Source: Heterotrichella gracilis (taxonomy: Eukaryota; Sar; Xanthophyceae; Tribonematales; Xanthonemataceae). From it: a stretch of 64,000 nucleotides of DNA. The notes under the pieces are model-generated. The model was not told where the DNA came from. It worked only from the letters and a program-made list of their open reading frames with translations, and searched no databases. Numbering within the stretch: the first letter of the stretch is position 1; the number at the start of each line of letters is the position of its first letter. Position numbers and translations under genes: made by a program. The DNA is taken from contig JAULBX010007329.1 in assembly GCA_032358255.1 (NCBI GenBank), positions 1-64,000 of the forward strand. The letters run 5' to 3'. This document shows, in pieces, positions 2,005 through 61,815 of this stretch.

Positions 2005-2088
2005 CTTCGCCCATCTCCCCTTGCATAAGTGGCCAGGGTGCGGGTCGGGTGGCCTCTAACCCCCCGCACCATCACGCACGTGTGTGCA
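2005..2088 (-). repeat. 3'-flank echo of GTP cyclohydrolase exon 5
   Basis: The plus strand here (CAGGGTGCGGGT, then GGTGGCCTCTAACCCCCC, then the CATCACGCAC block) is a diverged copy of 2230-2285 in the last coding exon, which carries the zinc-cysteine motif. It lies just beyond the stop codon and is not in an intron. Confidence 0.7.
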
Positions 2089-2111
2089 TGTTGACACCCT
2101 ACCAAACCCCA

Positions 2112-5100
2112 TTAGCTGTACCCCCCCCTGCTTGTACCACCACCACCAGCAGCAGCAGCAGCCAGCAGCTGCGCCACCGCCGCCGCCCTCCCCGCGTGGT
2201 CGGTCGCCCACTCCCCCCTTGCGGCAGTGGTCAGGGTGCGGGAGGAGTGGCTCTCCACCCCCCGTGCGATCATGCACATATGGGCGGCCTCGCATACCAC
2301 AACCGCTGCACTGGTGCCTGGTAGGGTTTCTAGGGCTTCCGCTAGCTGGTGGGTCAGCCGCTCCTGGACCTGTGGGTGGCAGAAAAACACTTTAGTGATT
2401 AAAATAATGACGGCAAATTACATTTTAATATGTAGGTCTAAAAGGGATATTGGATCGAGGCCAAGCATGCACACGTGCGCCAATTCACAGATTGTCGGCG
2501 CATATGTTTAGGTGCCGGGTAGGGTTTCTAGGGCTTCCGCGAGCTGGTGGGTCCTTTGCTGCATTCACCTTTGTCTCACACATTAAATGGTTCCCGACCC
2601 CTAGAGGCCTTGCGGGGTCAATGTGGCCAGGAACCCCCATGCACTGCCGGCGCTGCATTCCATACATGCCGACAGCTCGAGAAAATCCATGCCCACAACG
2701 ACACCGCAAGGCCTGCCAGGTGCAAGAACCATCTAGTGCACAAGGGGAACCAAAATACACTTGTAAGGTTGTAGACCAGATGTGTGCCAGGGGGCCTACC
2801 CGTAGCCTGCAGTTTTACACCCTAACCCGAGACCATGACCCTAAACCCAACCTGTGGCCTAGGGCGCTTCACCCTACCACCCAAACCCTAACCTCTGCCT
2901 GTGCCTGTACACCCCAACCCTAAACCCCAAAACCTACCTGTAGCCTGTGGCTGTACACCCGCAGCATCTCTGCCAGCTTGGCTTAACGCCCACGGCTGTA
3001 CATCCTAACCCCCAAACCCTAAATCTTAAACCCTAAACCCTACCTGTAGCCTGTGGCTGTACACCCGCAGCATCTCTGCCAGCTTGGCTTAACGCCCGTG
3101 GCTGTACATCCTAACCCCCAAACCCTAAATCTTAAACCCTAAACCCTACCTGTAGCCTGTGGCTGTACATCCGCAGCATCTCTGCCAGCTTGGCTTGGAG
3201 CACATGTACCGGTAGGCTGGACCTGCGCAGGCACCGGAGGTTTTTAGTAGGGTTTTAATAGGGTTTTGGTAGGGTTTTGCTGACACCCGCAGCATCTCTG
3301 CCAGCTTGGCTTGGAGCACATTCACAGGTAGGCTGGACCTGCGAGAGGCACAGCAGGGTTAAGTAGGGTATAATAGGGTTTGGTGGGGCGTTGATAGGGT
3401 TTTGCTGACACTCGCAGCCTCTCTGCCAGCTTGGCTTGGAGCACATGCACAGGTAGGCTGGACTTGCGCAGACACAGTAGGGTTTTAATAGGCCATCGAT
3501 AGGGTTTTGCTGACACTCGCAGCATCTCTGCCAGCTTGGCTTGGAGCACAGGTAGGCTGGACCTGCGCAGGGACAGTAGGGTTTCAGGAGGGTTTTGGTA
3601 GGGTTTTGGTAGGGTTGGACCACTTGCACATGCAGGCTGTTAGGGTGTCAGAAGGGTTTTGGTGCGGTGTTGTTAGGGTTTTGTTAGGGTTGGAGCACAT
3701 GCACATGCAGGCTGGACCTGCACAAGCACGGTAGGGTTTCAGAAGGGTTTTGGTGCGGTGTTGCAGGTTCTGGCAGGGTTTTGGTACGGCTTTGGAAGGG
3801 TTTTGCTGTACACCCGCAACAACTCTGACAATTGAAAACACCCCCGATAACACTCACGTAATATATCAGCACGTGCACCCTCCCATAGGGTTTTTTTGTA
3901 GAGGGCCATGTGGTGCTCATGTTGCCGGCATAATTATGACGAGTAACAAAACGTAAAAACGAATGACAACACTCTAGACAACACCTAATGACGGTATGGT
4001 ATTTTGCACCATTGTCCCGGGAATACAACACCATAGCGCGCACCTGCACGCCACGTGCGCCCTGCCATAAAATGCCAAGGGCTAGACTGGGAATAGCCCT
4101 TGCTCGCACACAGTTGAGAAGGGGAGGTAAAAGACAAGCTGACGCCCGGGGAGGGAGGGTGCCACCAGGGCGTATGGAAAATAAAGCCTACCAAAACGTA
4201 GATGACACGACACTGGAGGGTAGTGAAAGTAGAATACTAGCGGGGATACACACCTGCACGCCACGTGCGCCCTGCCATAGAACGGCAGCATGTGGTGCTC
4301 GCACACTGTTGAGAAGGGGAGGTGGAAGGCGTGTAGGCGAACGGGGAGGGTGCATGCCTCCAGCGCGTACCCGTTGGGTAGGCTGGGCGAGGGCTGCACA
4401 TGGGTGCCAGATGTCGCGTGGCAGAGCCACCGCACATACCTGCAGACAATGAAGGTGTAGGGTTTAGGGTTTAGGGTGCATGCCTCTAGAACATTCCCCT
4501 TGACTAGGATGGTGGGTTTAGGGTGTGAGGGTTAGAGGGTTTAAAGTTTGATGCTCCAGCGCGTAGCCATTGGGTAGGCTGGGTGAGGGCTGCACATGGG
4601 TGCCAGATGTCGCGTGGAGGAGCCACCGCACGTACCTGGAGGACAATTAGGGTTTAGGGTTGATCATTTAGGGTTTAGGGCTTGCACTGGACGTGAGTGC
4701 CATTTTTGCGTGCATGCCACATGGCGCAATGCCCCCGCTTCTTCGCGCACCCTAAACCCTAAACCCTAAACCCAATGAATGCAGCTGGCATGGGGCATGC
4801 TGCATGTCCCTCCTACCACAAATGCCTCTTGATACCATGCTACAATCACAATGCCTAGTAACAGCGGCCCCACTTTGACCGCCCCCGTTCCCTCTCCTGC
4901 CGCTGCACGCACGCCATCACCTGCCCACCTCCTCCTGCACATTGTAGACCCCCATGGGACGGGACCACACGCCCAAACCGCGACCCAGCCCCCCATTGGC
5001 AGCCTACCCTTAAAAAAACCCTAAACAAAACCCCGTCCCCCGTCCCCATGATCCATTGCATGCACGCCCCTCACCTCCTCGCCCCCTCTTGCGCAGCATG

Positions 5101-6713
5101 ACTCAAACCCTCCGGTAGGGTTGGCACCACGCGCTCAAGCAGCCCCTGCACTGCCGCCACCATGCCCCCCTCGCTGGCCGCCTGCGGGTGCGTCGAATGC
5201 AACCCATGGTCGCCCCCAATGCTGGTGCTGGTGCTGGTGCTGGTGCTGGTGCTGCAACAGCTGTAGTGGGTGTGGGGGGCTGGCTGGTGGTGCGAGTCTC
5301 CACAGCCGTTGGTGCTGGTGCTGGTGCTGGCGGTGGGGTGGGGGCCGGGTCGTTGCGCCTCCCCACAGCCGCTGGTGGAGGGGGGGCTTGTGGTGGTCGG
5401 GCTGGTGGTGCAGTGGGAGAGGCCGTGGAGGTGGAGTAGGGCGGTGAGCTCCTGTGGGGAGGTGCATTTAGCGTTTAGGGTTTGGATAGGGTTTTGGGTT
5501 AAGGGTTTAGGGTGGTGGAGGTGAAGCAGGGCGGTGAGCTCCTGTGGAGAAATGAATACAAGGTTTAGGGTTTAGGTAGGGTGTGGATGTGGTAACACGT
5601 GGAATGAAGCATACAAGGAAGCAACCAGCCATTAACGCATGCAGTATATACCATTATGTATGGTGCAATGGCACTAGCTAACGCCAGTGCTTGTAATTAG
5701 AAACGTGTGTGTGTACCCCTCGCAGTCTGAGGGGCAGTGTATGTGCACTTCTGCTGCTGATAGCCTGTTGGGCCTACTAAGCTGCCCAACAGCTGCTTTG
5801 TTACGTGCTATGGACCAGTGCTTGACAGCGAATCAAGTGGGATGGGCTGTGCTTGCCAGCATGAAACCATGCAGTCACGATCGACCCCTGTCTGAATGCA
5901 CTGCGCCTTGTGCACACCTGGTGTTGGTAGCCTGCCGGATCCTCCAAACTACCCAACAGCTGCATTGTCGCGTGCTATGGACCAATGCTTTGCAGCACAT
6001 CAAATGGACATGGGTTGTGCATGACAGCAGACCCCTCTCCAAATTGCAAGGTGAGTGGGTGTACACACCTGCTGTTGGTAGCCTGCCGGGTCCTCCAAAC
6101 TACCCAGAAGCTGGGTTGTTACATGCCATGGCCCAGTGGCGCCTTCAGAGGTGAACCGGGCCTCCACCACCACTGCCACACCATGGGCTGCCAACCCCTG
6201 CTGCACAGCTTCAGCTATCTGCGAGGTCAGCTGCGTTTGGCTCTGTAACCGCTTGGAAAAGGCTTTTGTGACTCTCGCGAACTTGCTGAGGCCCAGAACC
6301 ACCCCATTTTGTGGGATGTAGGCGACGTGGACCTTGCCATAGAAGGGGAGGAGCGTGGAATGGCACAGGGATGCGAACTGCAGGTCCCGCACAAGGACTA
6401 TCCCTTGGTGTTGGGAGCTGGAAGGAACCTCGTGGAAGAGGGCGTCCCCACACACGCTCTTGAAGCTTTGGCTGTATCCACTGCATAAGTCCAACCAGGC
6501 TCTGGCAACCCGATCTGGCGTGTCCCGTAGCCCTTCCCGTTCCGTGTCCTCCCCAATCCCCTCCAGAAGCGTGTCGATGAAGGGAGTCAGCTTGTGGTGA
6601 GGCTCCAACGGCTCCATCTCTTCTTGATCTGAGGTGCTGCAGGTGCTTGTGGCATGGTCATCACCATCACCGCAGCCACACGCCTCCGCATGACCGCTGA
6701 ATGTGATGCACAT
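2112..6713 (-). CDS. bimodular GTP cyclohydrolase I, 512 aa, 5 exons
   Basis: Converts GTP to 7,8-dihydroneopterin triphosphate, the first step of the pterin branch of folate synthesis, probably in the cytosol. Exons 6069-6713, 5075-5451, 4254-4439, 3150-3222 and 2112-2369 join in phase with GT-AG ends. Domain 1 (residues ~45-205) has [27 protein letters not shown] and LSKFARV, but its zinc site is degraded: SLCHST replaces CEHH near 117, and EARFTS lacks the second Cys. Domain 2 (~290-512) keeps [10 protein letters not shown] at 387-396, VQERLTHQ at 428 and HMCMIARG at 457-464, hence all three zinc ligands. It has lost the YIP...GLSK segment, replaced by [17 protein letters not shown], and its TPxRVA motif is only ARRYVRWL. 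Plants are known to have two-domain GTP cyclohydrolase I in which neither domain is complete. A Ser/Thr/Pro-rich linker (~216-295) joins the domains. The start is the first ATG of the exon. Confidence 0.88.
2511..2562 (-). repeat. echo of GTP cyclohydrolase exon 5 (5' part) in intron 4
   Basis: The plus-strand string GGTAGGGTTTCTAGGGCTTC recurs here after its appearance at 2321, followed by CGCGAGCTGGTGGGTC. It matches the [13 protein letters not shown] coding block of exon 5 with a few changes. It stops before the acceptor and is preceded and followed by unrelated intron DNA. Confidence 0.75.
2820..3149. repeat. interstitial telomere-like CCCTAAA block with two exon-4 echoes
   Basis: Runs of CCCTAAACCC and variants alternate with two partial copies (about 2935-2984 and 3048-3096) of the exon coding [13 protein letters not shown]. 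Each copy keeps the donor-side CTACCTGTAGCC context and is cut off at the same point (GGCTTAACGCCC), so the ~113-base unit is a true tandem duplication. Confidence 0.8.
3280..3575 (-). repeat. three further echoes of GTP cyclohydrolase exon 4
   Basis: The core CATCTCTGCCAGCTTGGCTT (one copy reads CCTCTCTG), followed by GGAGCACA and AGGTAGGCTGGAC, recurs at about 3285-3340, 3408-3465 and 3505-3568. Copies are separated by TAGGGTTTTG-type strings. They keep the acceptor side but have lost the RMYSHRLQ end and its donor, so they look like decoy acceptors. Confidence 0.8.
3860..4130 (-). repeat. two decayed echoes of GTP cyclohydrolase exon 3 (CEHH exon)
   Basis: At 4040-4130 the block CACCTGCACGCCACGTGCGC, then CCTGCCATA, repeats that of exon 3, but the CEHH codons are damaged (TTGCTCGCACACAG remains). 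At 3868-3925 only GTGCACCCTCCCATAGG and GTGGTGCTC survive. Both retain the AC-CTGCACG donor context or part of it. Confidence 0.65.
4545..4660 (-). repeat. echo of the 5' half of GTP cyclohydrolase exon 3
   Basis: GCGTAGCCATTGGGTAGGC, then GGGCTGCACATGGGTGCCAG and ATGTCGCGTGG, repeats 4370-4437 with few changes. It is flanked on both sides by TTTAGGGTTTAGGG strings (4457-4540, 4649-4682). Confidence 0.75.
5221..5256. repeat. (GCTGGT)n in-frame hexamer repeat
   Basis: Five or more tandem GCTGGT units lie within exon 2 of the GTP cyclohydrolase gene and encode alternating Thr-Ser on the minus strand in the linker between the two domains. A second short run lies at 5310-5330. Confidence 0.8.
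5517..5560 (-). repeat. echo of GTP cyclohydrolase exon 2 start
   Basis: GCAGGGCGGTGAGCTCCTGT repeats the acceptor-side sequence of exon 2 (around 5435-5455) in intron 1, next to TTTAGGGTTTAGG. Confidence 0.65.
5735..5985 (-). repeat. two echoes of the end of GTP cyclohydrolase exon 1
   Basis: The end of domain 1 (plus strand GGTAGCCTGCCGGGTCCTCC, then AAACTACCCAGAAGC) is repeated at about 5915-5975 and, more diverged, at 5755-5815. Each copy is followed by a GCTATGGACCA(A/G)TGCTTG block that has no counterpart at the true exon, so the duplicated unit includes intron DNA. Confidence 0.7.
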
Positions 6714-7463
6714 GGCCCCACGGCACCGGCCAGCACATCCACGATATGGTTTAGTTTAATTGTTCAGCAACCAAGGCGTATCTGTGCGCAGGATTGGCAG
6801 GATGTGCGTACTGAAGCTGCACCTCAGCCAGGTCAGCCGCAGAAAATGTGTCAGCGATTTGCGAAACAATCAAATCCTTTTTTGACGCAAAAATAAATGG
6901 AATTCTTCCAGGAAAATGTTGGGTGTTTTCATGTTTGCTTCTTACACCCTGCAGAACCCTGGCCACAGTCACTGTGCCATGGTGTATTTCCTCGAACAAC
7001 AACACATGCTGTTGCACAAGGCGTGCAAAGATATGCATACACCACACTCAGGAACTAGAAGCAATGCTCCGGGGTTGAGCCGCCACAACGCCATGAACAT
7101 GCCCTATGTAATTGAATACACGCCAGTGAGCAACCAGTTTACCTGCATTCCAGCATTACAGACAGATGAGAGGTCATCTGCAACCTTGCACAAGTGGTGC
7201 CAAGCAATTTTCTCCCAAACCCCTCTCACACTAAATCAAGCACCAACAATTATTGGACCAGTGCTAGGGTTTGTTATTATAACAAACCCTAGCACTGGGC
7301 AACAAGCTTAACGTGGATATGGTAGTCACTAGCCTGTCCAATGCAGTGTTTGCGGTTCTGGAGAAGGACTGTCCACTGCAATAATGTAAATGATGATGTG
7401 CACTAATGTAAATCATGATGATCCACCACCATCAGATATCCATCCATCGACCCAATCCATATG
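6714..7463. other. intergenic stretch with a 41-base palindrome
   Basis: Lies between the start of GTP cyclohydrolase and the end of the SET/MYND gene. A 98-codon minus-strand frame (6751-7047) resembles no family I recognise. A near-perfect palindrome lies at 7258-7298. Confidence 0.5.
7258..7298. repeat. 41-base near-perfect palindrome
   Basis: The left arm begins CCAGTGCTAGGGTTTG and the right arm is its reverse complement, 20 bases each around a single central T. Each arm contains a telomere-like TAGGGTTT. It could form a long hairpin. Confidence 0.85.
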
Positions 7464-7600
7464 TCAGCACAACCCTGCTTCCAGCTCCGCGTAAAACTCC
7501 TCCTCGCTGCGCTTCCACCCACACATGTTGCACTCGCACAGCGAGGATCCCGGGCCACAGGGGCAAATGTGCCAAAACAGCTTTCCCGGGTGAATTGAAA
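7464..7600 (-). repeat. 3'-flank echo of the last SET/MYND exon
   Basis: A copy of about 135 bases of exon 8 lies just beyond the stop. It keeps the SCFGTFAP-like and CECNMCGWKRSEEEFYAELE-like coding blocks in recognisable but shifted form, and even the stop codon context (GTGCTGA). One-base changes and a small indel separate the two copies. Confidence 0.85.
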
Positions 7601-7640
7601 CTGTTTTTGAATTGCAGGAAAGGCGGCAACAACGCCCAAA

Positions 7641-10600
7641 TCAGCACATCCCCGCTTCCAGCTCCGCGTAGAACTCCTCCTCGCTGCGCTTCCACCCACA
7701 CATGTTGCACTCGCATAGGAAGGATCCGGGTGCCACGGGGGCAAACGTGCCGAAGCAGCTCTCCCGGGTGCACAGGTACTTGAGCAAGAACATGTTGATG
7801 TAGGCGGCATCCACGTGGCCCGTTTCCTCCCCTGGGACCTCGGTGTCTGCTTCTTCCCCAAGGTGGGCATGCGAGTGCGGGCCACATGGGTCTGCATCGG
7901 AGTCCATGTCTGGTTCACTGCCCTGGCTGCCCTCCTCCTCCCACGTGCTCTCCTCCTGGAAAATGACAATAAGCAATTAAGAATAAACTATATCACATCG
8001 AACAATCCGTATGTCAAATGGGTTATATACAGGGAGAGTGGGAGCGTGATAACTTTAGGCTCCTACCCTGCGCACACAACCCCCACCTTGCAACGCACGC
8101 AGGAGGCGCAGCAAAACCACACTGCTTGATGCCTGGCTGTGCAGCAACACCCAAACCTCCTAACTCCCCACCTGGTTGAACGGTTTAGGTGTTGCTATTG
8201 CGTGATATAGCGGTCTTACCTTGCAGCGCGGGCAGGCGCAGGAGAAGCCATACTGCTGCGCACACCGCTCCTGCCTCTCATCGTACTCCCAATTGAGGGG
8301 GAAGTAAGACTGCGTGATCTCCTCCCCTGCTGGGATGTCGTGCAGCGCTCGGAAGGTCAGGGCGGTCCTGCAAGGGTTTAGAAAAGGGTTTTAGTAAGGG
8401 TTTGGACGAGGAGAATTGCTGCTCGGGAGGTCCCGGCGTGTGAATGCGCACGAGGGCGTAAACGGGGTTTTGGTAAGGGTTTTGACTCAAGTTGAAGGGG
8501 GAGTAGGCCTGCGTGTCTCCTCCCCTGCTGAGATGTCGTGCAACGCTCCGAAGATGAGGGTGGTCCTGCAAAGATTTGGATAAGGGTTTTGGCAAGGAAA
8601 GCAGCCGCTTGGGAGTTCTGGACAGCCCTGCAAGAAGGATTGGCAGGACCCATGGCTAGGTTATGACTAGGGTTTTGACATGGTGGGCCGAGGGTTGTGA
8701 CCAGGGCCTCGTCGAGGGTTTGGATTAGGGTTTGGCAGCGGCGAGGCCTGCACCTGCCGCGCCAGACACCCAGGGCCCAAGTCAGAAATGCCTCGCTGCC
8801 TCTAAACCCTACGCCAGGGGTGTTGATATGTAAACCAGGAAGGTTTATATATTAACACCCCTGCCTACACCGTACACTCTACACCGTGCACCCTAAACAC
8901 GCTAGTGTCCCTCTTTCGCGATGCACTCCAAACCCACCCTCCCGCCCATTCACCCACCTTGTCCCTATTGGGAGATCAGCTTGGTCAAATCTGGCCACGT
9001 TGGGTAGGCACTCCTGATTGATAAGGGAGGCGGCGTGCTCTCCAGGCAGCTTAGCCACGCCATGCCAAACACACAGGGCACACCTGAAGGTGCCTCTAAA
9101 CCCTAAACCCTACAGTGCACACCAAGTGCGGTCCACCCACCCACCCCACCCACCTTGTCCCTATTGGGAGATCAGTTTGGTCAAAGCTGTCAAACCTGGC
9201 CACGTTGGGTAGGCACTCGTGGTTGATGAGAGAGGCGGTAGGGTAGATGCCGCTCCCGCGAATCTTGCGCTCCCCCTGGCATGGTAAAAAAACAGGGGTG
9301 GTGTCGGTGCTGTTGTTGGATGATATATTACCATGATTATGATATATATTCATAGTTACATGCCGTCGGAGGCATGCATGCACCATCAGTGGCCACATGC
9401 CATGCCTGCCTTCCTGTCGTGCACTAGCCGCTGCCACCTCCCGACGCCATGTAAACCCTAAACAGGTGCCAGCTCCATGTAAACCCTAGCCAGGGGCCAG
9501 CAACATATAAACCCTAAACAGGGGTCAGCTCCATGTGATCCCCTGGCAGTAGGTCCTTTTCCATGCATTGGGCTTTGTGATGCATGCGCATGCATTTCTG
9601 AGCAGGTGTAGGGTTTGTAGGGTTTCCTCTCCTCCCCTCCCAAAGGCGCCCTGAGACCATACGCGTCAAGAACTGTTTGAAGGGTTTTGTAGAGTTTTGT
9701 GGGGGTTTGTATGGTCTTTGTAGGGTTTCCTCCTTACCTCCTCTCCTGATGGTGCCATGATGCCATACGAGTTGGCCTCCTCCACTAGCAGCAGGTGCTG
9801 GACCTCCTCTACGCTCACAGCTGTAGAACCACAAACAAAGGGTTTTAGGGTTTGGAATGTAGGGTTTTGATGTTTGCCTCTTCAACGTGCAGCAATTTAA
9901 ATGCTGGACCTCCTCTAAGCTCACAGCTGCAACACCACAAACAATGGTTTATGAATTCTGGATTTAGATGTTTGCCACCTCCAATGGGCGCTAGGCGTTT
10001 TGTCGCACCCCGAGGTAGGGTTTTGTTGCCCATAATCACAGCACAAGCCCTTTTAACCACACAAAGCTTGCACAAACGCTATCGAAACCCTAGCAAACCC
10101 CTTGCCAGGGTTTCCTTCACCCACCGGTGAGCGGCACTCCCAGCAGGTGGCAGGCAGCCTGGTGCAGCTGATGGGCGCTAGGGTTTTCGTCACACCCTGA
10201 ACTAGGGTTTTGCGGCGCGCTTCGCAGCTGTAGGAGCTGTTGGTATTGCTCGGAAGCACCTGCGGCATGCGATGCAGACAAGTCACAATTGCGCTACGCA
10301 CTTTTAATTATCGCAATTAACGTATTGCGATAACTTTAATTATGATATGAGTTGGAGTTCCCACAGTCCAAATGCCATGCAAAACCCTGTCCACTGCCGG
10401 CGCAAGCTTGCAAAAGGAAACATAGGAGTCAACGGCCTGTCATCCAAGGTGGAAAACTGGCAAAAAAACTCGGCAAGCTGGAAAGGCAAGCCTGGTCAGA
10501 AATGTTGTACTTCACGAAAGACTGTACCCTGAAATGCCATGCCCTGACGCAAAATGCATGTATATAGCCGTCACCCATGCCATGCACAACCCTACCCGGG

Positions 10601-15085: not shown

Positions 15086-15129
15086 ATGTGCGAAATGGAT
15101 TTTTCTGGAAGTACCCATTGGGGCCGCAT

Positions 15130-17692: not shown

Positions 17693-19019
17693 GGTGAGCG
17701 GCACTATGGCCTGCGGTGGGGAACGGGTGGGTGAGGGTGGAAACATGCAGGTAGAGAGAGGAGTGGAAAGATGCAGCAGCGTGGTTGGCACGCGTTCACA
17801 CTTATCTAACCCCGTTCAAGCTGGGTTGCAGTCAATGTGGCTGTGGCAGTGCACCTGCTTGCAAGCAAGGCGGGCCCAGGCAGGATGCAGGCAAGAAGAT
17901 GAGGTGGGTAACAGGCAAATACAGCCGAACATCGCAGCCGAGTGGTTGGGTGAGTACACGAGATGGTAAGCACACAGTTTAGGACTGTGCACTCTGGATG
18001 TTGTGGTTGGCGTTGACCCTAAACCAGGGGTAAACTAACTAGACTACCCTGCCTACACCCTGACCCCGTTTAACACCATCTGACCACGCCCAAGCTGGGG
18101 TTGCAGCACTGTACAGAGCACCTGCTTGCAGCCAAGACGAGGCACAGGCAGGATGCAACGAAAGGAGAGGGGGGGGGGGGCGGAAGGCGCAAGGCGCACA
18201 CCCCTCTGTCTAAACAGCGGACCCACCTTTGTCTATGCCATGTTTGAAGCGTGCTCACGTTTCTAGGTCACGTTTTCAGAGAGGCCGTTTCTTGATCTAG
18301 GGCACTGTTTCGAACCTTGCATGCAACAGAAGCCTTCTATCGAGGCAAGCATGAGGTGAGCATGGCGTCCGTCTACGCAGATGAACCAAGCGCAACGTTT
18401 TTGCTAGTCTACAAATCAAGATGCAGCAGCAGCGCCACGAGCTCAGCAGTTTGATCACCTCAGTTTTGCATGCATGCATGCATGCATCAGCTCAGTAAAA
18501 GTTGTGTCATAAGTTCTAAACCTATGTGAATGCACAGCTTAAGGATAGCTATCACTGCACGCATCAGCGTCCCACGGAAACAACAAAAGACCACTTGCTA
18601 TATCAAGACACGGCATTGGGACCTTTGTGCACTGACGGGCTCCCCAACATCCTTCCCGATTCCCACAAACAATGCGGGACTTTATTTCAATTCTTACCAA
18701 GATTGCTCCTTGGGACCCGAATTGCAGCCCCAATTGCGAGGCATTGTTTCTTGGGGTTCATATCTGGCTTTTTCAGGAGAATATAAGTTTATCGTGCCAG
18801 TTTTTGTGTCGTCCAAGGCTTGAACGCCCTTTTCACCGTCCACCAAGCAAAGGCTCAATGATATGAACGGACTTAAAGTAACGACCTACTTGTGTCAACC
18901 CTGGCGAGACTTTTGCTGAGCATATTAAGACCCATCGTCAGGGACCCAATCCAAGCGATGGTTTGGGCATGTAGGCGTGTATAACCACTACAGTACAACA
19001 GCAGCAGGACCAACACAAG
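17693..19019. promoter_or_regulatory. 1.3-kb divergent intergenic region (GT23-like and lipin)
   Basis: Should hold both promoters. Visible are a G-run with a C (18170-18182), a (CATG/GCAT)n tract at 18466-18487 and a CAGGGGT...ACCCTGCCTACACC block at 18012-18058 that echoes the ends of the palindrome at 8815. Two related stretches (17810-17900 and 18090-18160: CAAGCTGGG, TTGCAG, CACCTGCTTGCA, GGCAGGATGCA) look like a local duplication. No coding region supported. Confidence 0.45.
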
Positions 19020-52500: not shown

Positions 52501-53634
52501 AATTGGGGCATTATTTCACCCGGGGGGTGGCGGCGCGGTTACAATGAACGCTGCACATGTATCATGGATTGTGGCAACTCTCTAAGAACCTCTGCATGTT
52601 GCAGAGGTGGCCCGCATGACGTGCGGGCAGGTGTCAGTGGTTTCACCAAGGTTAAGCGGACGACCTGCGGGCGGGCTTGGGAAGGAAACAGTGGCCCATT
52701 TGTGAGGGTCCTGGTGGCAGGCAATTGCTAGGACTCAGGCATGTACGTACCACGATGTGGGACGGCTGGCATGTACGCATGCTCAGGGTTAGGTTCATTA
52801 GGTTGACTAACGCACCGCCAGCACCGCCTCTTCAGCCGCCTTGTCTGTTTCTGTGACCAGATCCGTGACCCCCTTGTACTGCACGTTGCGGGGCTTGTCC
52901 ACTGCATCCATCACCACCTGCGGGGGCCAATGAAGGGAGCTCCATTAGTTCCTGTTTTGTTGCGTGTATTCAATTTTACCAGAGAGCAACATGGTAGTGG
53001 CAGCCGAAAGGTGAAGTGGATGGTCGGCCTAACAGGGATGACGAGGGAATTCTAGACGTCACCTTTAACGGCTGCTGTTGCTTTCTTGGCCACAGAAAGG
53101 AGCTCTTGGGCTAAGGTTTAGGGTTTGGACTTTATGGTGTGATAGGGTTTACACGCACCTCTGCACCTGCTTCAGCTGCCTTCTTGGCCACAGAAAGGGG
53201 CTCTAGCAAGGGCACTTTCTCAGTGCTGGTTTAGGGTATAGGGTTTAGGGACTATAGGGTCTAGGGTTTGCGCGCACCTCTGCACCGGCTTCAGCTGCCT
53301 TCTTGGCAACAGCCAGGAGCTCCAGCAAAGGCACCTTCTCAGTGCTGGTTTAGGGTGTAGGGTTTGGTCATTAGGGTGTGTTAGGGTTTGAGCGCACCTC
53401 TGCACCGGCTTCAGCCGCCTTCTTGGCCACAGAAAGAAGCTCTAGCAAGGGTACCTTCTCGGTGCTAGCATATACAACGAGTGCAGATGCCCGGTGGCCG
53501 CGGTGGGGGTGTGCCGGCTTGAAGGCCCTGGAAAAAACCCTAGGGTTTCCCCTCCAATGCCCTAAGCTGTGGTGGCAGTGTGCGGTGGCTTGAGGGGGGT
53601 TTGCACAGCCCAGCGCTGCGTGTGGTGGCAGCAT
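49518..53634 (-). CDS. plastid inositol monophosphatase family protein (IMPL1-like), 356 aa, 6 exons
   Basis: Mg2+-dependent hydrolysis of inositol or related sugar phosphates, probably in the plastid. Exons 53398-53634, 52816-52917, 52347-52437, 51649-51875, 50722-50854 and 49518-49798 join in phase. A His/Arg/Ala-rich N-terminus (~1-55) with RASALVVYAS fits a chloroplast transit peptide. Catalytic elements: TDLVTETDKAAEEAV, metal-binding GEE (126-128), DPLDGTTNF (144-152) and KPWDVAAG (275-282). The stretch VTGFGYEHDEPWAANMRLFK, then GVRRLGAAAVDLCHVALG and YWEYRLKPWD, is the plant IMPL1 signature region rather than bacterial SuhB or animal IMPase. The last exon gives SVFDRSILASNGLLH, also IMPL1-like. 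No key residue is missing. The start ATG is the only one ahead of the transit-like region. It is divergent from the HP30-like gene, also plastid-associated. Confidence 0.9.
49860..50125 (-). repeat. three echoes of IMPL1 exon 6 start
   Basis: GGCTTGAGGCGGTACTCCCA, then GTAGCCATCCAC, recurs at 49878 and (with AGGAGG) at 49989, plus a decayed copy at ~50088. The first two keep the GCCTGCGGGG- or CCGGTAGGG-type acceptor side and a GGACCAGGGTTTAGGGC spacer. Period ~110 bases, copied from 49762-49805. Confidence 0.9.
50236..50268. repeat. uninterrupted CCCTAAA run
   Basis: Four perfect or near-perfect CCCTAAA units in IMPL1 intron 5, among the cleanest telomere-like runs in the window. Confidence 0.85.
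50510..50640 (-). repeat. large echo of IMPL1 exon 5
   Basis: CGCCACGTGGCACAGGTCCA, then CCGCCGCACCCCTTGGGTCT, TATCTCCTTGAACAGGCGCA and TGTTGGCAGCCCAGGGCTC, copies 50724-50828 at over 90% identity. The Phe-Thr of KEFTDETQ is changed, and the copy ends before the acceptor. Confidence 0.92.
50935..51425 (-). repeat. repeated acceptor-side units of IMPL1 exon 5 with TTTAGGG
   Basis: CACCTGCGCAGGATCGGTTC, then GGGGCGTC and TTGACCTGTGGGCAGGGATC, recurs (with variants) at 50853, 51137 and 51317, each followed by CCCAATCGGCCCA and TAGGGTTTAGGG-type strings. It contains the acceptor plus ~90 upstream intron bases. Confidence 0.88.
51535..51600 (-). repeat. echo of IMPL1 exon 4 donor end
   Basis: CACCAGCAGTGACTTTGTCA, then GCTCCTTGACCC, copies 51645-51676. 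TTTTCTGTAGGGTTT precedes both. Confidence 0.85.
51965..52070 (-). repeat. echo of IMPL1 exon 4 start
   Basis: GTGGCGCAGCACACCCACCG, then AAAGGCGGGGTGGCTGTGGG and TGAAGTTGGTGGTGCCATCC, copies 51810-51880 with acceptor. The DGTTNF codons are intact. Confidence 0.92.
52595..52690 (-). repeat. two short echoes of IMPL1 exon 3 start
   Basis: GCATGACGTGCGGGCAGGTG and GACGACCTGCGGGCGGGCTT resemble GAATGACCTGCGGGCGGTGG at 52431, the exon 3 acceptor. Confidence 0.65.
53060..53345 (-). repeat. three tandem echoes of IMPL1 exon 1 end
   Basis: GCACCTCTGCACCGGCTTCA, then GCTGCCTTCTTGGCAACAGC and CAGGAGCTCCAGCAAAGGCA, at 53274; a second at 53155; a third, shorter, at 53064. The true exon is at 53395. Period ~120 bases, each followed by TAGGGTTTAGGG-like strings. 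The AKKAAEAGAE codons and donor are repeated. Confidence 0.92.
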
Positions 53635-54982: not shown

Positions 54983-57900
54983 ATGGCCTTGAAGGCGCCC
55001 CTGGGCTTGCCCATCGACCTCAGCGGGGTGCAGAAAGTGAAGGACAACTTTGACGAATGGGTGAAGAAGCAGGGCATCGGGGCTGAAGTGGCAGCCCATG
55101 CGCTCTTCGGAGGCGTCCAGGGAGCCTTCTTTGGTGGTTTGATGGGCGGTATGTCGAAACTGGACCCATCTATGGCCCCTGCCCCAGGGGTGATGTCGAT
55201 GGGTGGGCCACTGCAGCAAGCCAGAAGCTTTGCAGTAATGACTGGAGTGAATGCTGGCCTGGCGAGGGCGATCAAGCACCACAGGGGAGGTGTTGAGGAC
55301 TGGAAGGGAGCGTGAGTGCCCTAAACCCTAGAAATCACACCTTGTATTGCAAACATGCCAGGTGCAGTGCTAGCTGCCTGTGTGGGGCTAGGCGAACGAT
55401 CGCCTGGGTCAAACTTTGCACTAGTTACTGTGTTCAGCAGAACCGAAAGAACTGCGTGTGGGGGTATGGGTGGCAGAAGGGAACATGGTGCTTGAATCCT
55501 AGTTTTACACAGTGCAACTGGTACCACAACTGTATGCCGGGGGCGTGGTCGCCAGACATGGGTGCTTGTGTGATGCGCTGTGCGGCGCCAGGCGAACAGT
55601 TGTCTTGGTGAAAGCGTTGGATTAGGTGTAGCAGGTAGCTGTTGCATAGCATCGCTCCCTGTGTGCCCAACCCTAAACCCAACCCTACCAAACCTTATTT
55701 ATGACAATGAGCGCCCTACCAATGATGTGTCCCTTGGCACTGCACCACATTGCTCCTCGCTGCCCCCCAAACCCATGTTCGTTCCCAGCATTGGCTTGGT
55801 ACCTGACCACTGCTGCACCAAGTACAGGATGGGCGCCGCTTTCGGGTCGGGCATTTGCTTCTCATTCGTGAGCGGCATGGCGCCTCAGGGCAAGCCTGCC
55901 CTGTACCAAACCCTATTGCATTGAGAACCCTACCAACTGATATGTCCACTGGCATGCACTACCCTGCTCCCTCGTTGCCCCAAGCATGTTCATTTTCTAC
56001 AGGATGGGTGCCGCTTTCGGGTCGGGCATCTGCTTCTCATTCGTGAGCGGCATGGCGCCGCAGGGCAACCCAGTTGCGGCCGCCATCGTCACCGGCGCCT
56101 CCTTTGCTATTGTGCAAGGCATGTTCTCAAAGGTAAGGGAGCCCACGCCATGGCCATGGGGGGGGAGTTGTAGAATTTAGGGTTTGCGCTCCTTTTCTTG
56201 CGCGGCATGGTGCCTCAGGGCAACCCAGTGGCTGCTGCCATCGTGGTCGGTGCCTCCTTTGCTATCGTGCACGGCACTTGCTACACGCCATGGTAAAGAC
56301 AGCATTGGCGTCATGTATAGGCCAACTGCAGATTAGAAAAAATATATGGAAACATGAGCGTTGGCATGGTAGGACAGTTCAGGTCTTACCATGGGGGGAT
56401 AAACCTGCCATGCAGTTTAGAACAGGGAGCAAAGCACCATCATGGGGCCTGGGGATTCACGGTCAAAGGGTTTAGGCTTAGAGCAGGGTTATGGCTTCCC
56501 TTCGCAGCGGCATGGTCCCGTAATAAGGGGTTAGGGTGTTAGGGCAAGCTGGGGGTTGCAGCCATCTTGCCTGTTTTTTCCTGTGCTGTTCTGTTTTCAA
56601 CGCATGTTCTCACACGGCACCGGACCATGTGGCTGCGCCATGCTGTCGGTATGGATATTACACGTGATGCAAACGTTTCCGTGAAAAGGTATCGTTTCCG
56701 TGAAAAAGGTTCATCCTGCAGCTTGCGCCGTGTATGCGGCGTCTCTCACTGGAACGCTTGTAATTAGCTGGTCAATGTTGTTATCAGCTCATTAATCATT
56801 GTGTCTAGCGCGGAGTCCATTGACCTTGTGCATGTAGCACATTTGTCCTGAAGCATTACCACCGCCACCCCCGCCGCCGCCACCACCACCATCAGCTGCC
56901 ACCAGCCCCTTGCATATTGTACGGCATGTCCTGTCCCCCCACTTCACCCCACCACCCACCGCTTGAGCACAACATCTGAAACCTCAAATTTCTCGCTCAC
57001 ATTTACCCACTGCTTTGTGCCCCCTTCAGGTGGGTGAGGTGCTGACTGGGAGGAAGCAGGAGGACCCCAACTTTGTGCGGGTGAAGACCATGCTGAAGCT
57101 GCTCAACCTGTCGGTGAGTGTAGGATTTAGGGTTTAGGGTTTAAGGTTTAGGGTGAAGACGAAGCTCAACCTGTTGGTGGGTGTAGGGTTTAGGGTTTAA
57201 GGTATAGGGTGAAGACATGCTCAAGCTGCTCAAGCTGTCGGTGGGTGTAGGGTTCAGGGTTCAGGGCCATGTCAATGCCCAGCTGCTTAAACCCTTGGTG
57301 AATGTGCATGAACCCTTTTCTGCCCATGCACTTTATCAATATTTAAGGCTAAATTTAGGCCTGTGCGCTCCACTTTGATTACCACCACCACATCCCCGCA
57401 TCGTCCTCCCCTCCACAGCAGCAAGCGCTGGACCCTAAACCCTAGACTTCAAGCACGCCGTTACACACACGCTAAACCGCGCTCTCGCTCCGGCCTCCCA
57501 ACAGAAACACCCCCCTTCCGCACTTCTCCCCTCCCAATCTATCCACACACACCACCCACCCACTTCCCACATGCTCCCCACCGACCCCCTTTCCCCCCAC
57601 CTCCCCAGCAATATGAGCGCAACCCTTAGAAGGGCCTCCTGACAGGCAACACCATCATGCTGTGGAACGATTGGTGCACAGACCTTCATCCCTAACCTGC
57701 AACACACTTGCTCATCTGGGCGCAAGCTCAATTCCCCCACCCCTCACCCCCTTCCTCCCCTCCTCCGCAGTACTATGAGCAGCGCTCAAACGCACCCTGA
57801 ACTGTAAACCCTAAACCCTAATTTCCCTCCCCTCCTCCGCAGCAATATGAGCGCCAGCTCCAGAAGGCCTTCCTGGGCAGACACCACCATCACGCTGTGG

Positions 57901-58234
57901 AACAACCCTGCGCCCATCACCCTCCTCGCCCCCTCCCCAGGAACAAACCCTAAACCCTAAACACAGGCCCTCTACGGGGCTCCCAGCACCCCTTACCCCC
58001 TCCGCACTAACCGCCTCCTCCCCTCTCCCGCAGCAATACGAGCGCCAGCTCCAGAAGGGCCTCCTGGCAGACAACACCATCATGCTGTGGAACGACTCAG
58101 CACTGCGGGAGGTGCGCATCCCCCCCGGCCCCCGCCTCCTCATCCTCCACCACCTGGACCAGTACCGCCACCTGCTCAAGCCAGCCATGCCCCTGCCGGG
58201 CGCGGTGGCACCGCCCCAGCCGACGTACAAGTGA
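54983..58234 (+). CDS. HP30-like Tim17/Tim22/Tim23 family protein with C-terminal SAM domain, 247 aa, 4 exons
   Basis: Plant HP30 proteins are inner-envelope import components for transit-peptide-less plastid proteins. Exons 54983-55311, 56003-56132, 57030-57113 and 58034-58234 join in phase. The N-terminus (KVKDNFDEWVKKQGI) matches the HP30 start. Four hydrophobic segments with glycine motifs form the Tim17-type channel domain: GGVQGAFFGGLMGG, the block around RSFAVMTGVNAGLA, AFGSGICFSFVSGM and AAAIVTGASFAIVQGMF (to ~155). The last exon gives YERQLQKGLLADNTI and VRIPPGPRLLILHHL, the SAM-like domain at ~182-230, then a short Pro-rich tail. The length fits the family (~250-260). The start ATG (ACACCATGG) has a good context. 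It faces away from the plastid IMPL1-like gene. Confidence 0.88.
55820..55930 (+). repeat. upstream echo of HP30-like exon 2
   Basis: ACAGGATGGGCGCCGCTTTC through TTCTCATTCGTGAGCGGCAT and GGCGCCTCAGGGCAA copies 56000-56071, acceptor kept, then passes into ACCAAACCCTATTG. A decoy acceptor 170 bases ahead of the true one. Confidence 0.92.
56185..56285 (+). repeat. downstream echo of HP30-like exon 2
   Basis: GCGGCATGGTGCCTCAGGGC, then AACCCAGTGGCTGCTGCCAT and GTGCCTCCTTTGCTATCGTG, copies 56047-56120 but lacks the donor. GAATTTAGGGTTTGCG joins it to the exon. Confidence 0.9.
57115..57305 (+). repeat. echoes of HP30-like exon 3 end with TTTAGGG
   Basis: GTGAAGACGAAGCTCAACCT, then GTTGGTGGGTG (57153), and GTGAAGACATGCTCAAGCTG, then CTCAAGCTGTCGGTGGGTG (57209), copy 57081-57119. 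Each donor-like GGTGGGTGTAGGG runs into TTTAGGGTTTAAGG. A weaker copy lies at ~57270. Confidence 0.88.
57600..57910 (+). repeat. three echoes of HP30-like exon 4 start
   Basis: CAGCAATATGAGCGCAACCC, then AACACCATCATGCTGTGGAA (57607), a short CAGTACTATGAGCAGCGCTC (57768), and CAGCAATATGAGCGCCAGCT, then CCAGAAGGCCTTCCTGG (57840), copy 58031-58095. All keep a C-rich tract and acceptor, and CTAAACCCTAA-type strings lie between. Confidence 0.92.
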
Positions 58235-58304
58235 GCGGCGCGCGGTGATGGTGGCGTGGTGGTGGTGGTGGTGACAGGCGGGCGGGTGATGTTGCGGGTG
58301 GCGG

Positions 58305-58420
58305 GCCAGAAGGCGCTCATCCCTCACCATCTGGACGAGTACCGCCACCTGCTCTAGCCAGCCAGGGCCGCTGCCAGGCGTGGTGTCACCCCCACAGCCA
58401 ACGTACAAGTGAGCGGGCGC
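58305..58420 (+). repeat. 3'-flank echo of the last HP30-like exon
   Basis: ACCATCTGGACGAGTACCGC, then CACCTGCTCTAGCCAGCCA and CCAACGTACAAGTGAGCG, copies 58157-58237 including the stop codon, after the gene end. Confidence 0.92.
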
Positions 58421-61055
58421 TTGATGGTGTGTGTTCTGGGGAGTGGTGGGTGGGGTGGGGTGGGTGGGGGCAATACCGGCGGAGGGGCGTTAGGGCGTTA
58501 AAAGGGGGTGTGGTAGTGCTGGTGCTGGTGCTGGTGCCGTCACCACAGTCAGCGTTGGGGTGGCGAGCGGTTGGTACTCCAAGCACTTCCATAGTCTTTG
58601 CACTGGTGGGAGGCTGGTGGTGTTTGGTTAGAGTGAGAGGATTATATCAGTACCCAAGGGTGATGCTTCGGGGGTTACGTGGGTTGCTATATGTGGGGAC
58701 ATGGTGCATCCCGGGGAGGGTTCATGCTTATTGCGGTATCAGCCTGGCAGCACCACTGGGCTGGGGGCCGACTTAGTTGACCCGGTGCTTGCAGGTGCCT
58801 CTATTGGGTGCAGCTTTGTGTTTTAACATGCTTGTGGCTTTGTGAGTGTATCAGTTGCTTTGGGACAAATGTAGCGTGGGCCAATTTGCTGGGCGGCTCT
58901 TCCACAGTTAGTTTTGGCACCAGTTTTATATGCAGTAGGGTTGCAGTAGGGTTGCAGTAGGGTTGCAGTAGGAGCGGAATATTAGGGGGGCTGCTTTGTT
59001 TTGCACTCCCGTGTAAAAACACACTTGCCAGATTGGTCCCTGCGGCCCTATAAGCCCTTTCCAAATCCAGCTGTACGTCACGGTACACTGCTTGGGTATA
59101 TTCGGCAACTGCTGAATGAGTGGTACGCAGACTGCACTACACTGGAAGTGTTGTAACCTGTTTCATGGCCTGTGTGGCACACTTGAACACGTAAGTTATT
59201 CTTATAGGATTCTCTGCGGCGGCGGGGTTTGTGTCACACAATGTGTGCAACCTAGTGCTTGGCAGTGCACCAATCCAGGGGACAGTAGCACCACAGAACA
59301 GTCGAATATGCTACTGGACTGCATGGTCCACCAAGGTGTACAGCCTACCATTCCCCACTGGTCCATTAAAACGTACAGCCATTCCCCTTTATACAACTTT
59401 GGTTACCACAGCCCCTTCAACCCTTCGTACTGCTGCGTGTTGGGCCATGCTACAGTTTTTCCCGCGGCACACGAGTACATTCTAGTAACAGGGGCTCCGC
59501 GCCCTTCGCTGCTGGTACGTTCAAGGCATGGCGGCATGGCACTTGCATGTACCAGAGAGTGTGACTAGTAGAGTGTGACTGGTCTGTACATGCCTCGACC
59601 AAGACGTCTTCGTATGCAAGCGCAAGTTATGCGGGCGGATTGAGGTAGCAGCGCTGCTTGGTGCTCCTGAGGAGGCAGCGGGGAGTGAGCATGCATGCCA
59701 AAGTTTCCCGCCCACTTTGCACTCGAGTCTCGGATGCCTGCTGGTAAAAGCTTGTGAAAATATCGCACTCCCCTGGCGATGCCAGACGAACGCTTCGTTT
59801 CATCTCGGACGCATCATCAATAGAGCGCCACGTCAGGGCCACCTTCCCCCCATTTCTTGTCCCATATTATGTTTTTACGCACGGGGCCCCGCACCTGTTC
59901 AGGTTTCCTGCACACAACTCGAGCTTGCATTCCCTCTTTCCGTTGATCAAGATGCTCTGGTGTCGCATAGTATCGCCTCAAGCTGGAGCGTCGTGGATTG
60001 CAAGGACAGTCCTAGCCTTGTAAGCGTCGGGTTATCTCCGGTAAGTGTGCACATGGGCGGGCGGGCGGGCGTTAAAACCGTGCACAGTACAGTACCACAT
60101 CGGGAGTAGGCGGGTAGGAGTAGGAAGGTTCCTGCTGGGTGTGTACGGTTGCTGCACTTGCATCCCGCACCAGGTGTGCTCGCTGTCGCTCTTGCTGGTA
60201 AACCCTGGCCATCTGCACTACTGTCGGATTGCTAGCGCAATCCACTAGCACGTCCCGTGCCGTTCCAAATGTTATGCGGCGTAGTGTCACACTTAGGGTG
60301 CTGGCTACCCGGTAGCCTGGTGAAGACGTGGGGAGCTTGAAGTTGCGGGTTGTGGGTCAGCCATGGCTCTCTCTGGGTGATCATGCGGCCACTTAATCAC
60401 CCAGCTGGGACCCATTCAACATCCTACTTTGCGCACCACGGCTGACGTCTAAACGCTCTGCCCACTGTCGCAAAGTGTCGCAGCTACTGGTAGATACTAG
60501 ATAGGACACGAGGTAACCACTTACGATGTGCGTTGGTAGGGCTAGGACGCGACGAGTTTTGCTGTAGCCGGTTCCTTAGTGATGGCAGCTTCCTCCACCT
60601 GCCTCGCATCATGCCGCTGCGTTGCTGAGTCAGCTGCAGTCTAAAAAGCTTGAACAACTTGCAACAGTTGACCGGCACTCAGCTGTCGTAGTTAGTAACC
60701 CAAGTGTCTCGCCAGCTGTGGTTTTTAAACATTTTCCTCCGTCACACCACGTATGCAAGATGTATGCACACTCTTGGCTTTCATACACACCCTGACAAGT
60801 TCCTGGACCCTTGCAGGACTTCACCCTCTGCACAACAGTGGATCTATCCAGGGCCTGCCCACAACCTGTAAGCCTAGTACTTTATCAGAGGGGGCTGTCA
60901 ACACGCAACCACCTTCTAATGCTCCATAACCTCCAGCTCCTTGCCAACCTTCTACACCTCCAGTCCCACCAGTAACTCTTCCCTGGACAGCTTTGCAAGC
61001 ACAGCTAGACTTATACCAACTGCCACTGCCCCCTGGAACATCATCAGCAGCCATC
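58421..61055. other. 2.6-kb intergenic stretch
   Basis: GCTGGT-type repeats at 58517-58535 and four GCAGTAGGGTT-type tandem units at 58930-58975. A 150-codon plus-strand frame from 59116 resembles nothing known and has no coding-like bias. No other feature seen. Confidence 0.5.
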
Positions 61056-61691
61056 ATGGTCTCCCAGCTCTACCTGTTGGTGCCACTAGCGCTGGCCCTG
61101 TTGGCCCATCACACCACCGCCCAAACCCCTTCCCTGCCCGCCGACCAAGGCGTGCCCGACAAGCCCAGGGGGTGGTACAACGCACAGTGCTCCGACAAAG
61201 GGGATGTCGACTACTGCCGCTACGTGGGCAGCGGCAACGCAGAGTGGTTCTCCTGCGCCTTGGCCACCCACCCAGACAACGAGTTCACCTCAGAACTGGC
61301 GGGTTTCAACGAGACCACGGTGGGCAAGTGCCCACTTAGACGCATCGTGGTGCAGAAGACCCTATCCAATGGCCTCCTGCTGGTGGCGTTTGTGTCCCGC
61401 CCGCCCTACCCCCCCGGCCAGTTCCAAGGCGGCCTGCCCACCTACCCACCACCCCCACCCCTCCTGGAGACCCTGTTCAAGAAGCCGCCACCCCACAAGG
61501 CAGGCGCCAAGCACCCCCCACCCCACAAGACTGTCAAGCACCCCCCACCCCACAAATCGACCAAGAAGCCCCCTCCCAAGAAGTCCAACAAGAAGCCCCC
61601 ACCCAAGAAATCAACAAAGAAGCCCCCGCCCAAGAAGAGCACCTTGCGGCCCCCACCCAGGAAGCTCTCCCCCAAGAACACTGGGCGATGA
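61056..61691 (+). CDS. intronless secreted Pro/Lys-rich (extensin-like) protein, 211 aa
   Basis: Probably an extracellular matrix or wall glycoprotein. Residues 1-23 are a signal peptide (LYLLVPLALALLA) ending near TTAQ. A globular part (~25-125) has four Cys (QCSDKG, YCRYVG, FSCALA, KCPLRR), an NET sequon and no fold I recognise. From ~128 the chain is Pro-rich: PPPPPLLETLF, then about nine PPPHK and PPPKK repeats spaced by KS(T/N)KK, and a basic end. Such motifs are typical of hydroxyproline-rich wall proteins, where prolines are hydroxylated and glycosylated and lysines may bind acidic polysaccharide. Of two in-frame ATGs, 61056 directly precedes the signal peptide; 60993 would bury it. 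Confidence 0.75.
   Translation: MVSQLYLLVPLALALLAHHTTAQTPSLPADQGVPDKPRGWYNAQCSDKGDVDYCRYVGSGNAEWFSCALATHPDNEFTSELAGFNETTVGKCPLRRIVVQKTLSNGLLLVAFVSRPPYPPGQFQGGLPTYPPPPPLLETLFKKPPPHKAGAKHPPPHKTVKHPPPHKSTKKPPPKKSNKKPPPKKSTKKPPPKKSTLRPPPRKLSPKNTGR
61505..61660 (+). repeat. tandem PPPHK/PPPKK coding repeat
   Basis: CCCCCACCCCACAA and CCCCC(A/G)CCCAAGAA units of 24-27 bases repeat about nine times in frame. Confidence 0.85.
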
Positions 61692-61759
61692 GCGTCCCCA
61701 GACAACGCCCTTGTGCAAGGATCTCACTAGGTGGATGTACAGCGGAGCCCACCTTTCAA

Positions 61760-61815
61760 GGTTTCCAAGAGGCCCCGCCCAGGAAGATCTCCCATAAACA
61801 ACACAGGGCGTCGCA
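61760..61815 (+). repeat. 3'-flank echo of the Pro/Lys-rich coding end
   Basis: GCCCCGCCCAGGAAGATCTC, then CCATAAACAACACAGGGCG, copies 61650-61690 beyond the stop. No telomere-like string is involved here. Confidence 0.8.

Follow-up and report, generated by a model that had tools for sequence, protein, structure and literature searches.

Tandem duplications in plants reportedly stem from adjacent nicks or from patch-mediated repair, as the work of Schiml in 2016 and of Vaughn and Bennetzen in 2014 is said to have found. In mouse and human cells, small tandem duplications arise at staggered breaks through fill-in by CST/Pol alpha-primase and Ku-dependent joining, those at 3' overhangs requiring both Ku and the CST complex (PMC8355091). 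In mammals, interstitial telomeric repeats are inserted during break repair; a duplication alone is described for 3 of 66 horse loci, and the intronic share of the human repeats fits random insertion (PMC7215372). Neointrons of Daphnia have likewise been attributed to staggered double-strand breaks (PMC4202315). Here we analyze a 64-kb stretch of the xanthophycean alga Heterotrichella gracilis (contig JAULBX010007329.1, positions 1 to 64,000; the start of contig 75 of a 68.5 Mb assembly in 903 contigs), hereafter the window, in whose introns a sequence-only reading had noticed partial copies of neighboring exons, which we term echoes. These prove to be direct duplications anchored at exon borders and mostly parted by filler that often carries the telomere repeat. 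We propose, with a probability of roughly 0.6, that each echo is one of the two copies of a tandem duplication that arose when a staggered break straddling the exon border was repaired in an error-prone manner.

Our statements on the genome rest on the window, on a set of 20 stretches, each of 10 kb and sampled at round coordinates on contigs 2-22 (the unpicked loci; 264 kb together with the window), and on telomere-picked loci, namely 3-kb stretches surrounding a telomere-type 21-mer, 27 of which were used out of 30. Self-alignment with blastn (word 11, fixed search space, pairs within 1.5 kb; control, one dinucleotide-type block shuffle) recovered 96 same-strand pairs and 1 inverted pair from the window, with none of either in the shuffle, and 59 same-strand, no inverted and no shuffled pairs from the 200 kb of unpicked loci, so that local pairs on the same strand total 155 over the 264 kb, with 1 inverted pair and none after shuffling. 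An alignment-free 12-mer count across 48 loci gave 482 direct runs against 182 inverted word pairs, the latter uncollapsed; it displays both of the preferred distances described below as humps, with a weaker contrast of direct to inverted than BLAST. Copies that are direct and local and that lack inverted counterparts are what a staggered-break scar should leave. After collapsing, 52 non-overlapping pairs remain in the window, where repeat pairs occupy 21% of the sequence, and 99 in the 264 kb. Their identity of 68-97% and offsets, almost all of 60-560 bp, agree with the 70-95% likeness, the spread of divergence and the distances of about 50-400 bases that had been judged by eye, and the copies are indeed local, truncated and on the same strand. 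At least one such pair occurs in 16 of the 20 other stretches, and the phenomenon thus extends to other scaffolds. Repeat density per 10 kb is 15 in the window against a mean of 3 in the other stretches (range 0-13; 4 of the 20 at 0).

Since the coding signal is weak, exons were predicted with a small splice-aware gene finder trained on the sample itself, whose splice consensus comprises CAG|GTGNG-type donors and TGCAG|G acceptors. The choice of real exon versus echo is that of these models, which are backed by Pfam matches for GTP cyclohydrolase (9e-44), the lipin LNS2 domain (2e-80), inositol phosphatase (7e-75) and HscB (5e-16). As codon bias is weak, exon edges outside the Pfam-supported genes are less certain; the gene finder also fuses adjoining genes and occasionally calls an echo an exon (18 of the 99 pairs are exon on both sides).

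Examination of the pairs against these models revealed that 45 of the 52 in the window touch a predicted exon (exon-intron 17, intron-exon 16, exon-exon 11, exon-intergenic 1), the remainder being intron-intron (4), intergenic (2) and intron-intergenic (1). Across the 264 kb, 83 of the 99 do so (61 exon-intron, 18 exon-exon, 4 exon-intergenic), alongside 7 intron-intron, 8 intergenic and 1 intron-intergenic pairs. When each intron was aligned only to its two adjoining exons, 83 of 333 introns contained an echo at a score of at least 30 (44 of 70 in the window, 39 of 263 elsewhere), while 0 of 333 did so with the exons of another intron and 0 of 333 with reverse-complemented exons. At a score of at least 38 the counts are 37 of 70 in the window, 32 of 268 in unpicked and 28 of 109 in telomere-picked loci, and 0 with reversed exons. 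The copies are thus too systematic for chance, as had been held. The further claim that nearly every intron is echoed fits most of the window's introns but not every exon: the single-exon FUT8 gene and the stretches at about 31-34, 40-43 and 59-64 kb are almost devoid of repeats.

For every border-spanning pair, a simulation in which random placement is tolerated outside exons predicts 1.8 pairs inside introns and 1.2 between genes, whereas we observe 7 and 8, respectively, for 61 exon-intron pairs, about nine- to fifteenfold fewer; counting only the 44 one-border cases, the shortfall of non-border pairs is seven- to elevenfold. Exon borders are therefore preferred, or favored after the event, roughly sevenfold to fifteenfold. 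In all one-border cases the copied segment, X, crosses the splice site that faces the echo (27 of 27 donors and 17 of 17 acceptors): in the direction of the gene, X from an upstream exon runs from exon into the donor side, and X from a downstream exon runs from the acceptor side into exon. The other 12 of the 56 rows are exon-only (9), exon/flank (2) or whole-exon (1). The distance from the real splice site to that of the echo is bimodal, with a short class at 106 bp (standard deviation 22) and a long class at 192 bp (standard deviation 25) among 91 border-anchored cases pooled from the window, the unpicked and the telomere-picked loci (Bayesian information criterion 960 for two groups against 975 for one; unimodality p 0.002).

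The sequence between the copies, F, resembles neither flank in 52 of 59 gap tests, and 25 of the 99 pairs form overlapping arrays; copies that adjoin one another, or that are parted by filler foreign to the flanks, are likewise as expected of staggered-break scars. The TTTAGGG telomere repeat is present in the filler of 34 of 44 short-class cases (9 of 13 in unpicked loci) and of 23 of 44 long-class cases (4 of 13). That this is the telomere repeat of the species itself is indicated by (CCCTAAA)9, which matches only on contigs C70, C140, C173, C460, C607, C609, C660, C712, C717, C770 and C872, forward at positions up to 200 on six of them and reverse on five (these by orientation alone), as for true telomeres. 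Telomere heptamers (TTTAGGG or CCCTAAA) make up 8.1% of intron, 2.1% of intergenic and 0.8% of exon bases in the window, and 2.1, 1.0 and 0.4% outside it. They cluster near splice sites, at up to about 60 nt, and occur in both orientations downstream of donors but nearly only as CCCTAAA ahead of acceptors, an asymmetry that selection can explain because TTTAG|G would act as a false acceptor. Among unpicked introns, telomere bases account for 14% of the first 60 nt where a donor-side echo is present against 4% where it is not (22 versus 208 introns, p 1e-4), and on the acceptor side for 8% against 2.5% (12 versus 218, p 0.08). Direct repeats flank clusters of at least 21 telomeric bases in 9 of 19 cases from unpicked loci, 9 of 27 from telomere-picked loci and 30 of 41 from the window, with positional controls at 2.5, 9.7 and 23%; inverted flanks, counted for clusters of all sizes, are found in 0 of 233, 0 of 27 and 5 of 210, and in the unpicked loci the direct-repeat rate climbs with cluster size (11/158, 12/56, 9/19). 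An exemplar is the minus strand of locus L034 at 8146-8019, where an exon edge, its donor and 13-19 nt of intron lead into telomere repeat and then again into exon edge, donor and intron start, with the remainder of the intron following the second copy. This regular companion of the echoes, along with the preference for two distances, had been omitted from the sequence-only reading.

Two other sources of the filler were considered and rejected. A head-to-head fusion of telomeres would place the G strand before the C strand; the order of blocks is even overall, and the filler shows no order. Copying from nearby sequence would leave matches close by, and 25 of 61 fillers did match within 1.2 kb (34 direct and 19 inverted matches, many of them telomere-like or further echoes); this is near chance, since with four targets each and a null rate of 9% per target about a third of the fillers should match.

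The filler also bears on the rival that survives best, namely plain contiguous tandem duplication of units of about 100 or 190 bp by replication slippage, Okazaki-flap ligation or template switching, with subsequent decay of the intronic part. Contiguous arrays of similar unit size do exist (e.g. 2921-3196, at 97% identity, and 44787-45172), the overlapping arrays are a quarter of all pairs, and 7 of the 59 gaps are flank-like, a few being nearly in register. Homology of the gap in the register of the lag is weak, however, in the few pairs and with the one usable control available. Moreover, the intronic parts within the copies differ by only 16%, so that the remainder of a contiguous unit should still align, which is not the case for 52 of the 59 gaps; similarity beyond the ends of the copies is above the 95% level of the control in 15-16% of pairs when 30 nt are compared and in 0-3% when 60 nt are, against an expected 5%. 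We accordingly consider this explanation unlikely, while still giving it real weight.

Comparison of the copies themselves threw light on their fate. Over 51 clear exon-echo pairs, mismatches at the three codon positions number 104/1048, 92/1051 and 184/1047 (9.9, 8.8 and 17.6%), and the intronic part of the copies shows 16.3% mismatch (199/1223, 55 pairs). The exon part of 26 of the 51 echoes contains a gap or a stop, and the length of 36 of 37 such gaps is not divisible by three. The approximate 1:1:2 pattern, together with these lesions, fits one freely decaying copy beside one constrained by its protein, and on average the echoes look like neutral relics. The pattern also reflects evolution after copying, so that the earlier view that these are not assembly duplicates is sustained. 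As had been noted, splice sites are usually kept in the copies (GT in 24 of 30, AG in 31 of 36). This retention, the third-position excess in high-identity echoes taken up below, and the 18 pairs read as exon on both sides might suggest that echoes function as alternative or mutually exclusive exons, or serve as decoy splice sites under selection; indeed, the score of the echo site equals or exceeds that of the real one for 13 of 30 donors and 9 of 36 acceptors. However, the real site outscores the echo in the other 17 and 27, respectively, the mean scores of echo sites are lower (donors 3.7 versus 6.3, acceptors 4.3 versus 7.2, with a matrix trained on real sites), and the frame and coding constraint that mutually exclusive exons would keep in both copies are not seen, given the gaps, stops and overall neutral pattern. 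A general role of this kind is accordingly improbable.

An origin from introners or other transposons, in which the filler would be the element and the echoes its target-site duplications, appears more improbable still. Like the present duplications, introners are intron-shaping insertions that occur in algae, there green ones, and are tied to nucleosome spacing through their preference for linkers (PMC9860276). Unlike them, the duplications in our sample share no dispersed element family in filler or introns (2 cross-locus pairs among 115 fillers and 14 among 431 introns, those given being of 41-74 bp), and the target duplications of introners described in that source measure 3-9 bp against gapped repeats of about 30-170 bp here. 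This origin was rejected.

It is no more credible that the introns were themselves born by tandem duplication inside exons around AG|GT, with the echoes as birth marks. Intron gain of this type is known in other lineages. Neointrons from staggered breaks have been described in Daphnia (PMC4202315). The predicted signature, an offset equal to the intron length with matched junctions, was found in 0 of 335 introns (also 0 in the control), and across introns of widely varying length most echoes lie about 106 or 192 bp away from the splice site; hence we rejected this origin. Misassembly can create short-range repeats, but divergence reaching about 30% with a codon-dependent pattern, similar pairs in 16 of the 20 other stretches and anchoring at borders leave an assembly or sequencing artifact hardly worth entertaining.

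Under the staggered-break origin that we favor, the break would straddle an exon border, with the segment between the nicks, about 30-170 bp long, constituting X. Both ends would be filled in across X and joined via the filler F to yield the order left-X-F-X-right. Direct repeats in this order, with no element shared within the sample and with the organism's own telomere repeat in the filler, are the expected scar of a filled-in, end-joined staggered break. Where X lies over a donor, the upstream donor would stay in use and the second copy would land inside the intron; where it lies over an acceptor, the downstream acceptor would stay in use. The duplicate would end up intronic because the outer splice site keeps working, making the event nearly silent; the inner copy would then decay, and recurrence would lengthen introns. 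The earlier notion of exon pieces copied into introns is thus correct as to where the echo lies, but the event is probably better described as tandem duplication of a border segment with filler. The frequent telomere repeat in short-class filler suggests that telomerase or telomeric nucleic acid acted on the break end. The genome encodes a telomerase RNA-binding domain and Ku; a Stn1 profile had no match in any genome searched, controls included, and so carries no information. The short and long classes may differ partly in origin, because the latter is poor in telomere repeat in the unpicked loci. As to what would direct breaks to borders, we can only guess at a positioned exon nucleosome or at transcription-linked R-loops or nicking. 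A more specific version, in which chromatin sets the phase of break repair aimed at exon borders (about 106 and 192 bp being half and whole nucleosome repeats) and telomerase-linked fill-in builds introns outward from their splice sites, is offered tentatively and is rather doubtful; were it true, much intron sequence would be duplicated exon edge plus telomere repeat.

Several observations weigh against a uniform break-repair origin. The 7 flank-like gaps imply that some events are contiguous duplications, and the gap test omitted 40 of the 99 pairs (25 overlapping arrays and 15 beyond the limits of the test). Where an exon exceeds the lag in length, geometry itself partly imposes the rule that X faces the echo. 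In the unpicked loci the 190-bp class has telomeric filler in only the above 4 of 13 cases, amounting to 4.4% of filler bases. The order of G-strand and C-strand repeats that we had ourselves predicted for telomerase extending two 3' ends is absent from short-class filler (8 and 29 cases, p 0.88). Finally, in the 15 pairs of at least 89% identity, 52 of 79 mismatches by hand count fall at third positions, above the neutral half (heterogeneity p 0.04); some young echoes may thus have been coding for a time.

The sequence-only reading knew of no process of this kind, yet staggered-break tandem duplication and telomeric insertion at breaks are both described (PMC4202315, PMC8355091, PMC7215372). 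As in the CST/Pol alpha-primase scars, the duplication here is direct, spans the interval between nicks and is not homology-driven, and Ku is encoded; unlike those scars as that source presents them, most copies are parted by filler, often telomeric, and events sit at exon borders with two spacings (PMC8355091). The CST fill-in complex is also the telomere-capping complex, a possible link to the telomeric filler. The mammalian interstitial repeats are similarly short telomeric repeats at breaks, sometimes with direct target duplication (PMC7215372), but differ from the present case, where 9 of 19 larger unpicked clusters have direct-repeat flanks and motifs cluster within 60 nt of splice sites. 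Daphnia shares intron-linked direct repeats, staggered breaks as their explanation and a proposal of intron lengthening, but in that account the exon-shared repeats are of 4-12 bp and the introns are new, as opposed to about 30-170 bp at splice sites here (PMC4202315). A literature phrase search, in which some phrases were over-long, found no published report of splice-border exon-edge duplications with telomeric filler at such density. The elements of the mechanism are known and its chemistry resembles that of described repair scars; it is the density, splice-site anchoring, spacing and telomeric filler that are unusual. While the origin and lengthening of introns are usually inferred from faint traces, here the event is still readable in 44 of 70 window and 39 of 263 other introns, and the echoes offer a built-in clock in their third codon positions and a marker in the telomere repeat. 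This genome would allow staggered-break repair at splice sites to be measured in its rate, geometry and targeting, and the action of telomerase at internal breaks to be tested.

Table 1. Local repeats of the window (lag in bp; identity in %)
Position	Strand	Lag	Identity	Description
1986..2285	-	197	78	1986-2087/2183-2285, both partly exon
2313..2553	-	198	95	2313-2355 (exon)/2511-2553 (echo)
2921..3763	-			array, ~106-bp units: cyclohydrolase exon edge, donor, telomere repeat; 2921-3196 at 97%
4358..4674	-	196	88	4358-4477 (exon + acceptor)/4554-4674 (echo); telomere repeat at both copy ends
5425..5582	-	90	82	acceptor-type pair; telomeric filler
5742..6138	-	167	71	overlapping array
7464..7770	-	177	90	7464-7592 (echo)/7641-7770 (exon + donor); one gap in echo exon part
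8293..8597	-	199	84	acceptor-type pair
8934..9238	-	199	82	donor-type pair; gap with telomere block
9796..9976	-	106	77	acceptor-type pair
9984..10212	-	187	83	intron-intron pair
10962..11379	.	365	85	pair outside gene models; gap with telomere blocks
11719..12047	.	147	75	array outside gene models
17804..18177	.	274	74	intron/intergenic pair
20359..20602	+	108		donor-type array, lipin gene model; telomere repeat per unit
20782..21069	+	185	91	20782-20884 (echo)/20967-21069 (acceptor + exon)
21092..21467	+	143	74	array
21807..22180	+	175	70	array
22961..23146	+	106	90	acceptor-type pair
23192..23544	+	211	78	donor-type pair; another copy between
23867..24080	+	129	84	acceptor-type pair
24440..24659	+	105		acceptor-type pair; CCCTAAA repeat ahead of each copy
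26457..26907	+	114/264/378	81-91	lipin exon with three partial echoes
27280..27545	+	104	84	array; lipin exon edge + donor
27653..28038	+	117/199/299		array; lipin exon start + telomere repeat
28431..28690	+	84		acceptor-type array; telomere repeat
29383..29911	+	157/289/448	68-91	copies
30114..30310	+	79	72	array; CCCTAAA repeat
35150..35437	+	188	87	donor-type pair
35643..35935	+	202	88	pair; acceptor + exon in both copies
35969..36320	+	192	76	donor-type pair
36519..36825	+	236	80	acceptor-type pair; gap with palindromic insert (36590-36637)
36890..37243	+	196	71	donor-type pair
37397..37655	+	197	86	pair limited to exon part
37737..38051	+	185	81	pair; second copy adjoins telomere repeat
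38565..38844	+	178	89	38565-38666 (exon + donor)/38743-38844 (echo); gap with telomere repeat
39156..39341	+	122	91	pair; CCCTAA blocks
43493..43639	-	63	74	overlapping pair within predicted exon
43845..44390	-	66/96/345/441/507		several partial copies of one exon edge + TTTAGGG repeat
44414..44647	-	171	86	pair
44787..45181	-			array, ~106-bp units: exon, donor, telomere repeat
45724..45900	-	89	77	acceptor-type pair; telomeric filler
49760..50123	-	114		acceptor-type array; inositol phosphatase exon + telomere repeat
50492..50848	-	203	85	donor-type pair
50824..51419	-	179/287/465	88-94	three copies; telomere repeat
51530..51677	-	92	91	donor-type pair; telomere repeat in both copies
51788..52082	-	180	90	pair, inositol phosphatase gene; exon on both sides
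53069..53466	-		82	array, ~119-bp units; telomere repeat
55823..56071	+	175	95	acceptor-type pair
57079..57266	+	63/128		array; telomere repeat
57574..58096	+	191/232/426	80-89	three acceptor-type copies
58139..58449	+	177	83	pair, last exon + 3' flank; stops in echo

Across loci L031-L050, repeat coverage tracks telomere-motif density (Spearman 0.64 without the window), to which matches among the motifs themselves may add. Some predicted donors consist of telomere repeat (G|GTAGGGTTT), as in the window introns 2370-3149 (minus strand) and 35225-35661 (plus strand) and in loci L037 and L043, and telomeric insertion may thus supply some splice sites. The palindromic insert at 36590-36637 (AAGGGTAATAAGATAATA...TATTATCTTATTACCCTT), in an intron of the heparanase-like gene, resembles miniature inverted-repeat transposable elements and has relatives in introns of L011 and L034. 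Another short sequence is common, in both orientations, to introns of different loci, namely the window intron from 53528 and introns of L001, L003 and L035. The names heparanase-like, Tim17-like, SET-domain and cyclin-like are our readings of the sequence, and the first two have no Pfam match. FUT8, an intact single-exon reading frame on which no Pfam family scored, is named from its relatives, the top named ones being from mosses and Coccomyxa, followed by Chlamydomonas and Scenedesmus, all at no more than 43% identity. The cyclohydrolase gene model (2147-6636, minus strand) appears to contain two cyclohydrolase-like stretches, one of which was run against Pfam; the plant cyclohydrolase enzymes likewise carry two such stretches.

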